Assembly: GCF_001458735.1 (NCBI RefSeq)
Contig: NZ_CZQA01000001.1
Span: forward strand, 248,001 to 312,000
Source of the DNA: Candidatus Nitrospira nitrosa
Lineage (GTDB): Bacteria > Nitrospirota > Nitrospiria > Nitrospirales > Nitrospiraceae
Direction: 5' to 3'
DNA length: 64,000 nt
In this document: positions 16,229-21,644 of the stretch, one piece after another
Layout of the letters: each line of letters starts with the position of its first letter
Numbering within the stretch: position 1 is the stretch's first letter
Made by a program: the position numbers and the translations under genes
The notes under the pieces: model-generated
The model's database searches: none
The model's input: only the letters and a program-made list of their open reading frames with translations
Told to the model about the DNA's origin: nothing

Positions 16229-16552
16229 CTACTTCCCAAATGCTTTTTTCAGCAGCGGCTCGATCTCGCCCTTGGCAGCCATCGGATCAAGAATGTCGGT
16301 ATCGCCGTAAAAGGTGCCGTCGATAAATACCTTGGGGAGCGTCGGCCAGTTGGTCATCTTCGTGAGGGCTTCGCGTTTTGCCGGCTGAGACAGGACATCG
16401 ATCAATTCGTACGGATATCCATACTTGTCAAAAAACTGCATGGTTTCCCTGGTGAACCCACACATCGGCATCGTCTTCGTTCCCTTGCCATAGATTAAAA
16501 TTTTATGGGCCTTCACTTCCTTCTGAATTTCTTCGTCCATCTGGTCGGCCAT
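16229..16552 (-). CDS. grxD: monothiol glutaredoxin (Grx4/GrxD type)
   Basis: A 107-residue monothiol glutaredoxin. The active-site motif is Cys31-Gly-Phe-Thr (MCGFT) where the family nearly always has CGFS; the glutathione-binding WPTLPKVFIDG and GDTDIL follow as usual. These proteins bind a [2Fe-2S] cluster with glutathione and pass it on, often in complex with BolA. The bolA gene lies 9 nt upstream on the same strand. I chose the second ATG (16552), as GGAGG then lies 5 nt upstream; the first ATG would abut it. Confidence 0.92.
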   Translation of the reverse strand: MADQMDEEIQKEVKAHKILIYGKGTKTMPMCGFTRETMQFFDKYGYPYELIDVLSQPAKREALTKMTNWPTLPKVFIDGTFYGDTDILDPMAAKGEIEPLLKKAFGK

Positions 16553-16561
16553 CATCTCCTC

Positions 16562-16801: not shown

Positions 16802-17048
16802 CGGCCTCCACTCCTCTGTTTTTAATACCCTAGCCCAAATCAGCGGTGAAAGGCAATGTGTCCCTCACCTGGTGGTTTTCAACATGGTGGTGGTGCATAT
16901 CAGCCAACTTCGTACAGGAGGTCACAATCCCAAACAATCAAGGCATTGAAAAGATGCACCTTCATAATTCTCACAGTTCGGCACCGACCTTGCGACTATC
17001 GGGTGTATAGACGGAAACCAATCGCCGCTGTTCACCAAGGAGGTTGCT

Positions 17049-17483
17049 ATGAGCGAATTCAAGTCAGGATTCTTCGTTGGAGGTGAGAGCTGCAATGGGC
17101 GAGTACTGGTCGTCGATGACGAGCCCGACATTCGTAAGGTCGTTCGCATGACGCTCCAAAAGGGCGGGTATGATGTTCTCGAAGCCGAGAATGGGGAAAA
17201 GGCCATTGAGGCCATCAACTCCGGCGAGAATCGGCTGCTCCTCGATGTCATCATCTGCGACATCCGGATGCCCAAAGTCAACGGCATCGAAGCGATTGCC
17301 TACTTCCGCCAGAACTATCCTCGCGTTCCGTTGATTGTGTTGACTGGATTCCCGGACACCGACATGGCCACCTCATTACTCCGTCAGGGCGTGGTGGACT
17401 ATCTGGTGAAGCCAGTCGAGGGGGAGAAACTGAAGGCCTCCGTTGCACGAGCCATGGAGCAACGTGAACTGGCCCATCTCTGA
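17049..17483 (+). CDS. single-domain response regulator (receiver only)
   Basis: A 144-residue protein consisting of a receiver domain (about 18-135): acidic residues in LVVDDEPDIRKVV, phospho-acceptor Asp71 in VIICDIRMPKVNG, Thr in VLTGFPD, and Lys in YLVKPVEG. There is no output domain, so it acts as a phosphate relay or by binding a partner. AAGGAGG precedes the ATG. It starts a four-gene set with two histidine kinases and a haem protein, 29 nt upstream of the first kinase, and is the obvious phosphorylation target of one or both of them. Confidence 0.93.
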   Translation: MSEFKSGFFVGGESCNGRVLVVDDEPDIRKVVRMTLQKGGYDVLEAENGEKAIEAINSGENRLLLDVIICDIRMPKVNGIEAIAYFRQNYPRVPLIVLTGFPDTDMATSLLRQGVVDYLVKPVEGEKLKASVARAMEQRELAHL

Positions 17484-17512
17484 TCAGCTGAGCCACAGCC
17501 GGGGGATCACAC

Positions 17513-18622
17513 ATGACGATCTTCTCACCGAGCATTGCTCCCTCACGAACCGAGTCTCAAGGGACTGCAGAGGCTCCCCCGCTGCCTCTGATGAGAGTCG
17601 CCATCATCGGAGCGGGTCGTGGGGGAACGGCCCTCCTTGATGTACTCCATCAAATCGGCACGATTGAGGTCGTCGGTATCGTCGACAAGAATCCAACGGC
17701 ACCCGGCCTCCGGCGAGCCCATGATCTCAACGTGCCGGTCTTTGATCAGGTATCGGGCCTGACCAAAAACCGACACCCCAGTCTCGTCATGGATGTGACT
17801 GGTGACCCCGCGATGGAGTCAGTGCTCCAAGAACAGGTGCCTCCAGGAACCGACATCGTCAATGGCCAGACGTCGCGGCTGCTCTGGTTGCTTATCCAGC
17901 ATGAAACGACGTTGCAAACTGAGCTACTCCATGCGGAGAAACTTGCGGGAATCGGCTCGTTTGCCGCCGGCATCGCCCACGACATCAATAATCCGCTCCA
18001 GCTCATTCTGGGCTTGGCGGAAAACCTCACCGACGAAACAGACCTCGACGCAGTGCACCTTCAAGCAGGCGACATTATTGAAGCCGTAAAACGAACGACG
18101 GCGATTTGTCGAGACCTGACGTCCTATTCTCGCCGTACATCACTTCGACCAGATGGACTCATCGGCGTCAACGGTAAGCTCGATGAGGCCCTGAAGATCG
18201 CCCGCTACGCCGTCGCCCTCCAAGACATTGAGATTCGCAAGCACTACCAACCGGACGTAGTTGCGAAGGGAAACCCTGATCAGCTCCTCCATGTGTTCGT
18301 CAATCTCATTACCAACGCGGTCCAAGCGATGGAACACCAAGGGATCTTGACCCTGGAAACCGCGATGGTAGACGGAGGGACACAGGTCCGTGTATCGGAC
18401 ACCGGCAGCGGCATTGCGCCGGAACTGCTGAACCGCATTTTTGATCCCTTCTTCACGACAAAGCCGCCCGGCAAGGGAACTGGCTTGGGCCTCTACAATA
18501 TCAAGAATGTCATCCATCACATGCATGGAGCCATTACCGTGGAAAGCCAGGTCGGACGTGGATCAACCTTCACACTCACCTTCCCTGGAGAACCCAGCCC
18601 GCAGGGAGAGGGATCATCATGA
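17513..18622 (+). CDS. histidine kinase with N-terminal Rossmann-fold domain
   Basis: A 369-residue soluble kinase without membrane helices. Residues about 27-130 form a Rossmann-like nucleotide-binding module: MRVAIIGAGRGGTALLDVL contains GxGxxG (33-38), then IEVVGIVDKNP with an acidic end of beta-2 and DVTGDPAMESV. A helical linker leads to the H box AAGIAHDINNPLQLI (His156) and a HATPase domain with NLITNAVQAM, DTGSGIAP and GTGLGLYNIK. Fusion of an NAD(P)-type or CoA-type binding domain to a kinase is uncommon and suggests sensing of a cytoplasmic dinucleotide or similar ligand. The next gene overlaps by 4 bp (ATGA). Confidence 0.88.
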   Translation: MTIFSPSIAPSRTESQGTAEAPPLPLMRVAIIGAGRGGTALLDVLHQIGTIEVVGIVDKNPTAPGLRRAHDLNVPVFDQVSGLTKNRHPSLVMDVTGDPAMESVLQEQVPPGTDIVNGQTSRLLWLLIQHETTLQTELLHAEKLAGIGSFAAGIAHDINNPLQLILGLAENLTDETDLDAVHLQAGDIIEAVKRTTAICRDLTSYSRRTSLRPDGLIGVNGKLDEALKIARYAVALQDIEIRKHYQPDVVAKGNPDQLLHVFVNLITNAVQAMEHQGILTLETAMVDGGTQVRVSDTGSGIAPELLNRIFDPFFTTKPPGKGTGLGLYNIKNVIHHMHGAITVESQVGRGSTFTLTFPGEPSPQGEGSS

Positions 18623-21102
18623 ACGCCCCCTCACCTTCTTCGCCAACCGGCGCCAGATGGGGACTCAAGACCAAGATCATCGTGTCTATGCTGCTTGTCG
18701 GGCTGCTCCCACTCGTCGTTGGCCTGGGCATGGCGTTCAGGCAGGGGTCTCAAGAAATCCGAGAGGTCAGTGGGGAAAGCTTCGAAGCCTTAGCCACCGA
18801 AGCGGCCCGAAAACTCGACCTGCTCGTGGTGGAAGAGATCGCGCACACCGCTCGAATCGCGAATGATCCCACCATCATCCGAGAGCTTGAGCGCAGGCGT
18901 GACACCCCTAGCAGCTCCAGAGCGAGTACGGACTTGGAACGGCGATGGATGAACCGAGAGAACACTGCAGTCAAGTCCCTGACGAACAACTCGCTCAGTG
19001 CGCTGCTCCAAGACTACTTTTCCGGGGTCCATAGCGCACCGGGGCAGTTGCTTCCTCAAGTGGTTCGCTCCTCGACCAAGATGCTGTTCCTGACCGACGC
19101 CCAAGGCACACTGGTCGGAACTATGACCGACCACCCGGCTTTTCGTCATCAGGACGCTCGCTGGTGGCGCGGCGCCTTCAACAAGGGTGTCGGCAAGCTC
19201 TACATCGAAGACCTCCATTTTGACGAGAGGGTGAATGTCTATGTGTTCACCATCTCACTGCCGATCATGGATAGTCTCCGACATGGCGCCGTCGGCGTGC
19301 TCCATCGTGTGATCGATGCCAAGGAATTCTTCTCCCCTTCGACCCATACCATTCGGTTTGGGAAGACCGGTCACGTCATGTTGATCGATACCAACGGCAT
19401 CGTCATCAGCTGTCCTATTCTCCCGACCGGCGTTCCGCTGTCCGATTCGAGCTTGACGCCCCTCATCACTCCAAATCACTCCGGATGGGTCCAAGCATCA
19501 AGCGACGGCCATGGAGGGCATGAAACGTCCGTCATCGGCTTTGCGCCACTCCCGGAAACCAGCCGAGCCACCAACGGCTCAATCGAGAAGGGATCCTGGC
19601 ACACGTTCGTCTGGCAGTCATCCGATGAGCTCTTCGCGCCGATTCAGCATCTGTTCAGTTGGGTGCTGATGTTCGGCCTGGTGGCCATCACACTCCTGGC
19701 CTCACTGGGCTATGTCGCCGCCGGCCGCATCGTCACTCCTGTCCGACAGCTTCAGCAGGCAGCCCAGGCCATCGGACGCGGCGAGCTCAAGCGACCGATT
19801 CAGATCAATACCGGTGATGAGCTGGAAGATCTCGCCGATGAATTTAATCGCATGGATGCACAGTTGAAAGCCGCGTTTGCCGGCCTCACCAGCCAAGTGG
19901 AATTGAAAACCCAGGAAGTCCGAGTCCTTCAACAGTCGACAGACCAAATTCTGGATGCCGTTCCGACACCTATTCTTCTGATCGACGCGCACGAAGTCGT
20001 GCAGTATATCAATCAAGCTGGACGCGAATCGTTCCCATCGCAGGGGACGGTGCCAGGCTCGTCACTGTTTTCAATTCTCTCCCTCGACCAGGCACAACAG
20101 AAACGGCTACAAACGGAGTTCCGAGCGAACGGTAACGCACTGCTCACCGCAGCCATGAGTACATCAGAGACCGCGCCACGGGATCCGTTGATGCCGGACA
20201 CCGATCACGATTCGGCGAAGCATCGTGCTCAACTCCAGATCGGATCACGCATCTACCGGTATCAATGGTTTCGTCTGCCGGCCAGACCTGGAGGAGAAGA
20301 CAGCATTGGGCTGGTGCTTCGGGACACGACGGATGAGAGTCGACTACAAGATCAGCTGGTCCAGGCCGAAAAGTCGGGAAGCCTTGGCGTACTCACCGCT
20401 GGAATCGGCCACGAGCTGAACAATCCCTTGTTCGGTATCATCGGCTTAGGCGAGGTCATGCAGGATGAACAAGATATGGAAATGATCAAGAGCTACGCCA
20501 ACGACATTGTGGCCCATGGCCGACGTATGGCCGCCATCATCCGTGACTTCACCGGCGTGATAGACCGTGAGACGTCCGACAAACCGATCTCGGTCCCCAT
20601 GGAGCACATCGTGGATCAAGCCCTAACCACAGCCCAGGCTACGCTGGAAATGCAAAACATCGTGACCCACAAGCACTATGCAGGCACAACACCGGTCCTC
20701 GTCCTTCCGGACCAGCTTCGACAAGCCTTGGTGAACCTCGTGACCAATGCCGTCCAGGCTATGAACGGATGTGGCACACTCACGCTGACCACCGCCGTAA
20801 CAGGTAAGACCGTGACCACGACGATCGCTGATTCCGGTCCGGGCATCTCCAAACAACACCTCTCGAAGGTCTTCGATCCATTCTTCACAACAAAGGGGCA
20901 GGGCGAAGGATCAGGCCTCGGGCTCACCGTTGCAAGGCGCCTGATCCGCAAATGTGGTGGCGACATCCGCCTTGAGAGTCATGAAGGAGAAGGCACCATC
21001 TGCTCGATCACCTTGCCGCTTTGTTCCACACCATTACAGCAAGGAGACCCATGGACTACTTCGGCTTCGCACTCCGCACCACAGCCATCACATTCCTCGT
21101 AG
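18619..21102 (+). CDS. membrane histidine kinase with Cache sensor, HAMP and PAS domains
   Basis: An 827-residue kinase. Transmembrane helix 1 (about 18-40), a large periplasmic double-Cache-like domain (about 45-335), transmembrane helix 2 (about 346-370), HAMP (about 371-425), coiled coil, PAS (about 440-570), H box GIGHELNNPLFGIIG with His598, and a HATPase with NLVTNAVQAM, DSGPGISK and GSGLGLTVARRLI. It is translationally coupled to the Rossmann kinase through ATGA and its 3' end overlaps the haem-protein gene by 52 bp. The receiver two genes upstream is the likely target. The external ligand is not predictable from sequence. Confidence 0.9.
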   Translation: MNAPSPSSPTGARWGLKTKIIVSMLLVGLLPLVVGLGMAFRQGSQEIREVSGESFEALATEAARKLDLLVVEEIAHTARIANDPTIIRELERRRDTPSSSRASTDLERRWMNRENTAVKSLTNNSLSALLQDYFSGVHSAPGQLLPQVVRSSTKMLFLTDAQGTLVGTMTDHPAFRHQDARWWRGAFNKGVGKLYIEDLHFDERVNVYVFTISLPIMDSLRHGAVGVLHRVIDAKEFFSPSTHTIRFGKTGHVMLIDTNGIVISCPILPTGVPLSDSSLTPLITPNHSGWVQASSDGHGGHETSVIGFAPLPETSRATNGSIEKGSWHTFVWQSSDELFAPIQHLFSWVLMFGLVAITLLASLGYVAAGRIVTPVRQLQQAAQAIGRGELKRPIQINTGDELEDLADEFNRMDAQLKAAFAGLTSQVELKTQEVRVLQQSTDQILDAVPTPILLIDAHEVVQYINQAGRESFPSQGTVPGSSLFSILSLDQAQQKRLQTEFRANGNALLTAAMSTSETAPRDPLMPDTDHDSAKHRAQLQIGSRIYRYQWFRLPARPGGEDSIGLVLRDTTDESRLQDQLVQAEKSGSLGVLTAGIGHELNNPLFGIIGLGEVMQDEQDMEMIKSYANDIVAHGRRMAAIIRDFTGVIDRETSDKPISVPMEHIVDQALTTAQATLEMQNIVTHKHYAGTTPVLVLPDQLRQALVNLVTNAVQAMNGCGTLTLTTAVTGKTVTTTIADSGPGISKQHLSKVFDPFFTTKGQGEGSGLGLTVARRLIRKCGGDIRLESHEGEGTICSITLPLCSTPLQQGDPWTTSASHSAPQPSHSS

Positions 21103-21644
21103 GGGGACTCTGGGGAGCGGGCGCACTGCTTTCTGCCAAGGAGCGGTCAACGGCTGCCGGTATTGCTCCGGAGAAAGTCGCCGATTATATCCATGCGGTC
21201 TTGGAAGCGGACCGTTCGTTCTATACCACACACGTCGTCAACCGAATGCAGGAACAGGGGATTGTGGCCGCGACGGAACAGTGGGAGCAAGGCAAAGGAC
21301 TCCCCTTGCCGGCACAATTCCTCCAACATTCCGGTCGACTGGTTGCCGAAGCCGGCTACGGCATTCGCTACAAGCTCATTGGATTCTCCCCAATCTATCA
21401 GCGCAATGCACCGGCCACAGAGTTTGAACGAAGCGCGCTGGAGCTCCTTCGACGGCAGCCAGATCGACCAGTCACCGGAGTGGTATCCAGCGGCAAGAAA
21501 CAGTACTTCCAGGCCATCTATGCAGATCGTGCCCTGTCGCCTGCCTGCGTTGCCTGCCACAATAGCCACCCACTCAGTCCAAAACAGGATTTCAAGCTGA
21601 ACGATGTCATGGGCGGAATCGCGATTACGATCCCACTGGAGTAG
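21051..21644 (+). CDS. DUF3365 (Tll0287-like) haem c protein
   Basis: A 197-residue exported protein: signal peptide (residues about 8-29) and a DUF3365 domain with the haem-attachment motif Cys166-Val-Ala-Cys169-His170 in SPACVACHNSHP. In this family a c-type haem sits in a PAS-like fold and is thought to sense redox state or a gas. AAGGAG lies before the ATG, which lies inside the end of the preceding kinase gene in another frame, so translation is probably coupled. Here the sensor is a separate periplasmic protein rather than fused to the kinase, so it may signal to that kinase's Cache domain. Haem ligation beyond CxxCH is not clear. Confidence 0.85.
   Translation: MDYFGFALRTTAITFLVGGLWGAGALLSAKERSTAAGIAPEKVADYIHAVLEADRSFYTTHVVNRMQEQGIVAATEQWEQGKGLPLPAQFLQHSGRLVAEAGYGIRYKLIGFSPIYQRNAPATEFERSALELLRRQPDRPVTGVVSSGKKQYFQAIYADRALSPACVACHNSHPLSPKQDFKLNDVMGGIAITIPLE

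Follow-up and report, generated by a model that had tools for sequence, protein, structure and literature searches.

Several described systems resemble, each in part, a four-gene operon of Candidatus Nitrospira nitrosa. Tll0287 domains have been shown to be Cache domains that carry haem c; a stand-alone member with an axial cysteine behaved as redox-like, and a fused member without it behaved as a nitric oxide (NO) sensor (2026 preprint, PMC12889525). The Rex redox repressor uses an NAD-type Rossmann fold in a regulator, histidine kinases of the AtoS/ZraS (NtrB) type are usually partnered by NtrC-type activators, and regulators of the CheY, DivK and Spo0F type are receivers with a complete active site and no output domain. 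The operon considered here, RR-RHK-CHK-HEM, occupies positions 17049-21644 of the window, the whole 64,000-nucleotide stretch analysed (positions 248,001-312,000 of contig NZ_CZQA01000001.1), and with reasonable though not strong confidence we read it as a two-component module, shared by Nitrospira and its relatives, in which two inputs meet at one receiver, with a haem-linked periplasmic signal. Its anatomy and conservation are firm, and its sensory logic is plausible. Nitrospira are major nitrite oxidisers, both in nature and in waste-water treatment. In the open-licence literature, no paper was found on redox or nitrogen-oxide sensing by Nitrospira two-component systems, nor on histidine kinases headed by a Rossmann domain or receivers into which such a domain is inserted.

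The first-pass annotation, made from the sequence alone, had described four forward-strand genes, and these open reading frames were re-found at the same coordinates, with 29 bp between RR and RHK, 4 bp (ATGA) shared by RHK and CHK, and 52 bp shared by CHK and HEM. RR (17049-17483, +) encodes a 144-amino-acid stand-alone receiver without an output domain (Pfam Response_reg, 99.7 bits). RHK (17513-18622, +) encodes a soluble histidine kinase of 369 amino acids, in which a Rossmann domain precedes Pfam HisKA and HATPase_c domains, the N-terminal segment matching DapB_N and GFO_IDH_MocA slightly below the cut-off. CHK (18619-21102, +) encodes an 827-amino-acid membrane histidine kinase in which a transmembrane helix, a double-Cache-like sensor, a second transmembrane helix (TM2), and HAMP, PAS-like, HisKA and HATPase domains follow one another; HAMP, HisKA and HATPase_c were matched in Pfam, the hydrophobic segments lie near residues 15-40 and 330-365, the dCache_1 match is sub-threshold (39.1 against a cut-off of 45 bits), and the sensor had zero sequence matches in a PDB search. 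HEM (21051-21644, +), whose ATG start sits behind AAGGAGA, encodes a 197-amino-acid exported or anchored haem c domain of the Tll0287/sCache_heme family (Pfam Tll0287-like, formerly DUF3365, 65.6 bits against a cut-off of 24.1), with the haem motif C166-V-A-C169-H170-N-S-H173. The hallmarks of two-component proteins are all intact, with the H, N and G boxes present in the kinases and the D, D, D, T and K residues in the receiver. Among orthologues, RR residues D23, D24, D71, T99 and K121 are each present in 65/65 sequences, RHK H156, N264, N268 and D296 in 71/71, CHK H598 in 65/65, and HEM C166, C169, H170, N171 and H173 in 61/61. RR is the best conserved of the four proteins, with a median orthologue identity to the window copy of 84%, against 59-67% for the others.

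The distribution of this arrangement was followed in 74 named Nitrospirota loci fetched with RHK (L039-L112), and in 395 sampled genomes of the phylum, from which the counts of RHK and HEM are lower bounds. Gene order and strand are kept in nearly all of the named loci long enough to hold the unit; these include N. moscoviensis, N. defluvii and N. lenta and extend to Nitrospirales whose kinases are 42-50% identical, the nearest named relative being Nitrospira sp. UW-LDO-01 (RHK 95%). Among the 104 best HEM places in the genome sample, 98 are preceded by RHK at a distance of 3.4-3.6 kb on the same strand, and these represent at least 97 genomes; in the window's own genus, 49/54 sampled genomes carry the operon. 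The flanks consist of a glutaredoxin gene on one side and AI-2E transporter, bactofilin and PBP genes on the other in Nitrospira, and include M28 peptidase, malic enzyme or succinate dehydrogenase genes in other lineages. Hence the four genes hold together while their neighbours vary, as expected of a conserved unit, and the recurrence of the same order and strand in many genomes and varied contexts is far beyond chance. The first-pass annotation had named scattering of the genes in relatives as a sign against its reading; this was looked for, and the genes were found clustered in Nitrospirota. Gene content, order, conservation and intact active sites can thus be read directly from the sequences.

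That two kinases serve one receiver, also proposed by the first-pass annotation, is backed by two sets of observations. In a maximum-likelihood tree, the transmitters of RHK and CHK cluster together with support of 95/96, apart from the other kinases tested, and the branching within the RHK half largely matches that within the CHK half. Hence the pair appears to have arisen by an ancient duplication, followed by joint inheritance; at sequence level, this origin is clear. Secondly, RR persists in lineages with only one of the kinases: L141 has RR and RHK with no adjacent CHK, an arrangement that L215 resembles, although its locus is cut at a contig end; L211-L213 have RR and CHK with RHK absent; and L218 has RR, CHK and HEM with RHK only as a relic (residues 303-357). 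Together, these natural deletions and sister transmitters support, without proving, the view that each kinase works with RR.

The nucleotide-binding domain that the first-pass annotation had assigned to the soluble kinase can now be described as an NAD-type fold, with ligand binding remaining a prediction. A GxGxGG motif with an acidic residue after beta-2 is the usual mark of NAD(H)-preferring folds. Modelling and alignment of RHK recovered the beta-alpha-beta fold, the GxGxxG signature and the acidic residue after beta-2, with G33, G35 and G38 present in 68/68 orthologues, G37 in 66/68 and D58 in 70/70. The isolated domain was predicted with a pLDDT (predicted local distance difference test) of 87, and its best PDB structure matches were acylating acetaldehyde dehydrogenase and Gfo/Idh dehydrogenases, with Rex lower, at a VIA Z of about 10.4; matches to TAL effectors in a phmmer search of PDB were dismissed as repeat artefacts. 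In the model of full-length RHK, the last Rossmann helix runs on into the phosphotransfer helices of the kinase, with low confidence around residues 139-149.

The same domain heads other signalling proteins, apparently serving as an input module used repeatedly across Nitrospirota. Elsewhere in the window's own genome (G000 contig C8, about 492 kb), it precedes HisKA_3 and HATPase domains in a kinase (L119:5971-7762, -), the gene for which overlaps that of a NarL/LuxR-type response regulator. Upstream of this second Rossmann kinase lie four consecutive genes for proteins of tandem cadherin-like beta-sandwich-type repeats (L119:2-5812, +), three with lipoprotein-like starts and the first truncated where the locus ends. 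In relatives, the RHK-type domain also heads large proteins, encoded at L120:4277-7705 (+) and L121:4833-8174 (+); in the former, it is followed by GAF, PAS, HisKA and HATPase domains, two receivers and GGDEF, and therefore may also feed cyclic di-GMP signalling.

The domain has additionally entered the receiver itself. Fifteen genomes encode a protein of ~264 amino acids, the ends of which match RR (residues 1-101 and about 103-144), and the middle of which is the RHK Rossmann domain with its linker helix up to SEKLAG, inserted between beta-4 (LTG) and the next helix, alpha-4. Examples include L126:1538-2332 (-), L127:5765-6559 (+), L132:6236-7030 (-), L138:5938-6810 (-), L139:6145-6939 (-) and L124:1247-2119 (-), with those of L124 and L138 having an N-terminal membrane helix. 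As the fusion occurs in two single-contig assemblies (G081 and G177), it is no assembly artefact, and by sequence these proteins derive from the operon's RR and RHK. They keep the phospho-acceptor Asp, the Thr and the Lys; their acidic pair is variable, and the post-Asp loop is two residues short, such that some may be pseudo-receivers. In the genus g16 genomes with a fusion, no RHK, CHK or free RR of the operon's family was found, and G378 has two fusion proteins alongside an RHK relic. The fusion ties the Rossmann domain to the receiver as a Rosetta-stone link.

For HEM, the claim of a haem sensor stands in as far as the protein is a CxxCH domain of the Tll0287 type, and the signal it carries needs refining. 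No third cysteine was found outside the first 24 residues in an alignment of 61 HEM orthologues, meaning the mature protein has only the CxxCH cysteines, without the axial residue of the Cys/His-ligated redox subtype. It is also encoded by a separate gene, without the transmembrane and HAMP signalling fusion of the NO-sensing subtype. Hence HEM, stand-alone yet lacking the axial cysteine, fits neither class cleanly, and a role with NO or another exchangeable ligand is possible. Searching PDB sequences with HEM alone, or with a 15-row profile, returned no Tll0287 or GSU entry, and the axial-ligand argument therefore rests on the missing third cysteine, rather than on an alignment to 5B82.

These components suggest how the module might operate. 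RHK would probably read a cytoplasmic dinucleotide, most likely NAD(H), via its Rossmann domain, the last helix of which would feed straight into the dimerisation and phosphotransfer helix, and CHK would read a periplasmic signal by its Cache domain, relaying it through TM2 and HAMP. Both would phosphorylate RR and, given their HxxxN motif, would probably dephosphorylate it too, leaving the level of RR phosphorylation to represent the redox or nitrogen-oxide state of cytoplasm and periplasm together. The haem c of HEM, outside the membrane, would most likely supply or tune the periplasmic signal, be it redox state or NO, perhaps through CHK. As RR lacks an output domain, it must act by protein contact, on a target of the kinase, activator or motor type. 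The ligands, phosphotransfer, HEM-CHK contact and output in this scheme are all inferred.

The operon also appears to be switched itself. A predicted sigma-54 (-24/-12) promoter, CGGCACCGACCTTGCG (16979-16994, +), is conserved across Nitrospira while its flanks diverge, with GGCA and TTGC unchanged or almost unchanged across 20 aligned upstream regions of the genus; 37 of 66 loci match at least 10/12 consensus positions, against 0.3 expected from shuffles, and the box is missing from most of these loci outside Nitrospira. About 90 bp 5' of it lies TGGTGGTGCATATCAGCCA (16888-16906, +), a putative enhancer-type activator site that is a near-perfect palindrome in relatives (TGGTGG-N-CCACCA) and that most Nitrospira loci retain between -160 and -193 relative to the RR start, within diverging surroundings; TGGTGGTTTTCAAC (16870-16883, +) is a possible further half-site. 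The palindrome and -24/-12 box occur as a pair in the window's own genome only before the operon and at a single further site, apparently by chance, and the genome encodes rpoN and about 25 sigma-54 activators. Hence the -24 GG/-12 GC promoter, upstream activator site and rpoN expected of a sigma-54 operon are all present, and in Nitrospira the operon is itself predicted to be switched by an enhancer-binding protein.

The first-pass annotation had noted the absence of a DNA-binding output, which holds for the operon in the window, and not necessarily for the pathway, as some relatives place a sigma-54 activator beside the module. This NtrC-type protein (receiver-AAA-Fis; 75-77% identity between lineages) adjoins the module in g3 genomes and G236, where it is followed by another Cache kinase, and lies 3' of HEM in L097; the loci are L211:2102-8001 (-), L212, L213, L214 and L097:4315-5590 (+). 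It was rejected as a conserved output gene, being absent from the window's genus, where no close orthologue was found (best own-genome match 53%). Nevertheless, the pathway could be branched, with RR a phosphate sink or adaptor, and the true output a sigma-54 enhancer-binding regulator that is phosphorylated by one or both kinases, and which perhaps also drives the operon's own sigma-54 promoter. The activator beside the module, the promoter, and transmitters that score best against AtoS/ZraS-type kinases would all suit such an arrangement; however, in Nitrospira the operon has no linked activator gene, and the Cache kinase behind the activator in g3 and G236 may be that protein's own partner, leaving this a possibility that we doubt. 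Less probable still is that two insulated systems lie side by side, one kinase serving RR and the other a regulator elsewhere, with HEM a passenger cytochrome-like redox protein: the residues after the phosphotransfer-helix His do differ between RHK (HDINNPLQLILGLAEN) and CHK (HELNNPLFGIIGLGEV), and HEM is lost in some lineages, but the transmitters are sisters, RR persists with either kinase alone, and gene order is maintained across unrelated contexts. It is also rather unlikely that the Rossmann domain binds no dinucleotide and acts merely in dimerisation or protein docking, despite its sub-threshold family matches, the absence of the catalytic half and its occurrence in structural positions, such as within a receiver, since nearly all RHK orthologues preserve GxGxGG and the beta-2 Asp, as the receiver insertions largely do too, and the nearest folds are NAD enzymes.

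The two-input, one-receiver reading nevertheless has several points to its debit. Being co-transcribed and of common descent is no proof that the two kinases both phosphorylate RR; the Rossmann family matches in Pfam are sub-threshold, and a modelled fold alone does not establish NAD(H) binding; HEM might act independently of CHK, as an electron carrier or NO scavenger, and some lineages that retain the kinases either lack it or keep only its CxxCH region (L098, L142). Many operon-bearing genomes hold nxrB, but several nxr-bearing genomes lack the operon, which hence would be a conditional, dispensable regulator, not one essential for nitrite oxidation. On balance, the reading of the first-pass annotation is upheld for the conserved unit, the NAD-type fold and the logic of the kinase pair, and refined for the HEM signal, the promoter and the output.

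Exceptions and neighbours illustrate how the locus varies. Its use as a strict marker of nitrite oxidation was rejected, as nxrB-bearing G102, G322, G060, G163 and G159 are without the four-gene operon. In the Nitrospira genome G165, the operon has decayed (L221:7096-7826, -), with RR 97% intact, RHK only a broken fragment, and CHK and HEM not found; the glutaredoxin and AI-2E/bactofilin neighbours are still there. HEM has shrunk to its CxxCH region (residues 156-185) in two Nitrospirales lineages (L142:9706-9795 and L107:11600-11689), an apparent decay. The window's glutaredoxin gene, of the monothiol type (16229-16555, -), is divergent from the operon and retained beside it in most Nitrospira loci. 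In some Nitrospirales, a large multi-PAS hybrid kinase directly 5' of RR (L099, L101 and L103, about 4.1-7.1 kb, +) is a possible third kinase input. A conserved fifth gene as output was rejected, the M28 peptidase, malic enzyme and SdhAB genes downstream in relatives being lineage-specific neighbours.

The operon is therefore a compact, testable candidate for redox or nitrogen-oxide sensing, kept through nearly the whole genus, and it offers a testable role for a haem c Cache family member encoded as a separate gene. Most of the novelty comes from the receivers with an inserted Rossmann domain: if the proposed sensing is true, these and the Rossmann-headed kinases would couple dinucleotide state directly to a phosphorelay. 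A bolder, and distinctly tentative, extension is that the Rossmann domain is a mobile NAD(H)-sensing input module, heading several kinds of kinase and, in derived lineages, inserted in the receiver beta4-alpha4 loop for direct NADH/NAD+ gating, which in Nitrospira would converge with a periplasmic haem c input (NO or redox) on a single receiver, by which nitrite oxidisers would be tuned between energy states.

Each described system thus shares only part of this organisation. With sCache_heme/Tll0287 proteins (PMC12889525), HEM shares the Pfam match, strict CxxCH, stand-alone exported domain and enrichment in Nitrospirota, whereas it lacks the axial cysteine of the redox-type stand-alone members and is a constant part of an operon that also encodes two kinases and a receiver. 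The NAD-type fold of Rex provides an analogy for NADH/NAD+ sensing by RHK, although Rex is a DNA-binding repressor, in RHK the domain drives a kinase, and no close sequence relation was shown. RR resembles the CheY, DivK and Spo0F regulators in its intact active site and missing output domain, yet has its own N-terminal extension, and its derived copies hold the inserted Rossmann domain. As for AtoSC and ZraSR, AtoS/ZraS are the best NCBIfam matches of both kinases, RR is nearest to AtoC-type receivers, and sigma-54 involvement is common to both. However, RHK and CHK score 165.8 and 177.2 bits against a curated equivalog cut-off of 646, and the operon is set apart by two kinases, a Rossmann input, a receiver without AAA or helix-turn-helix domains, and, in Nitrospira, no linked activator.

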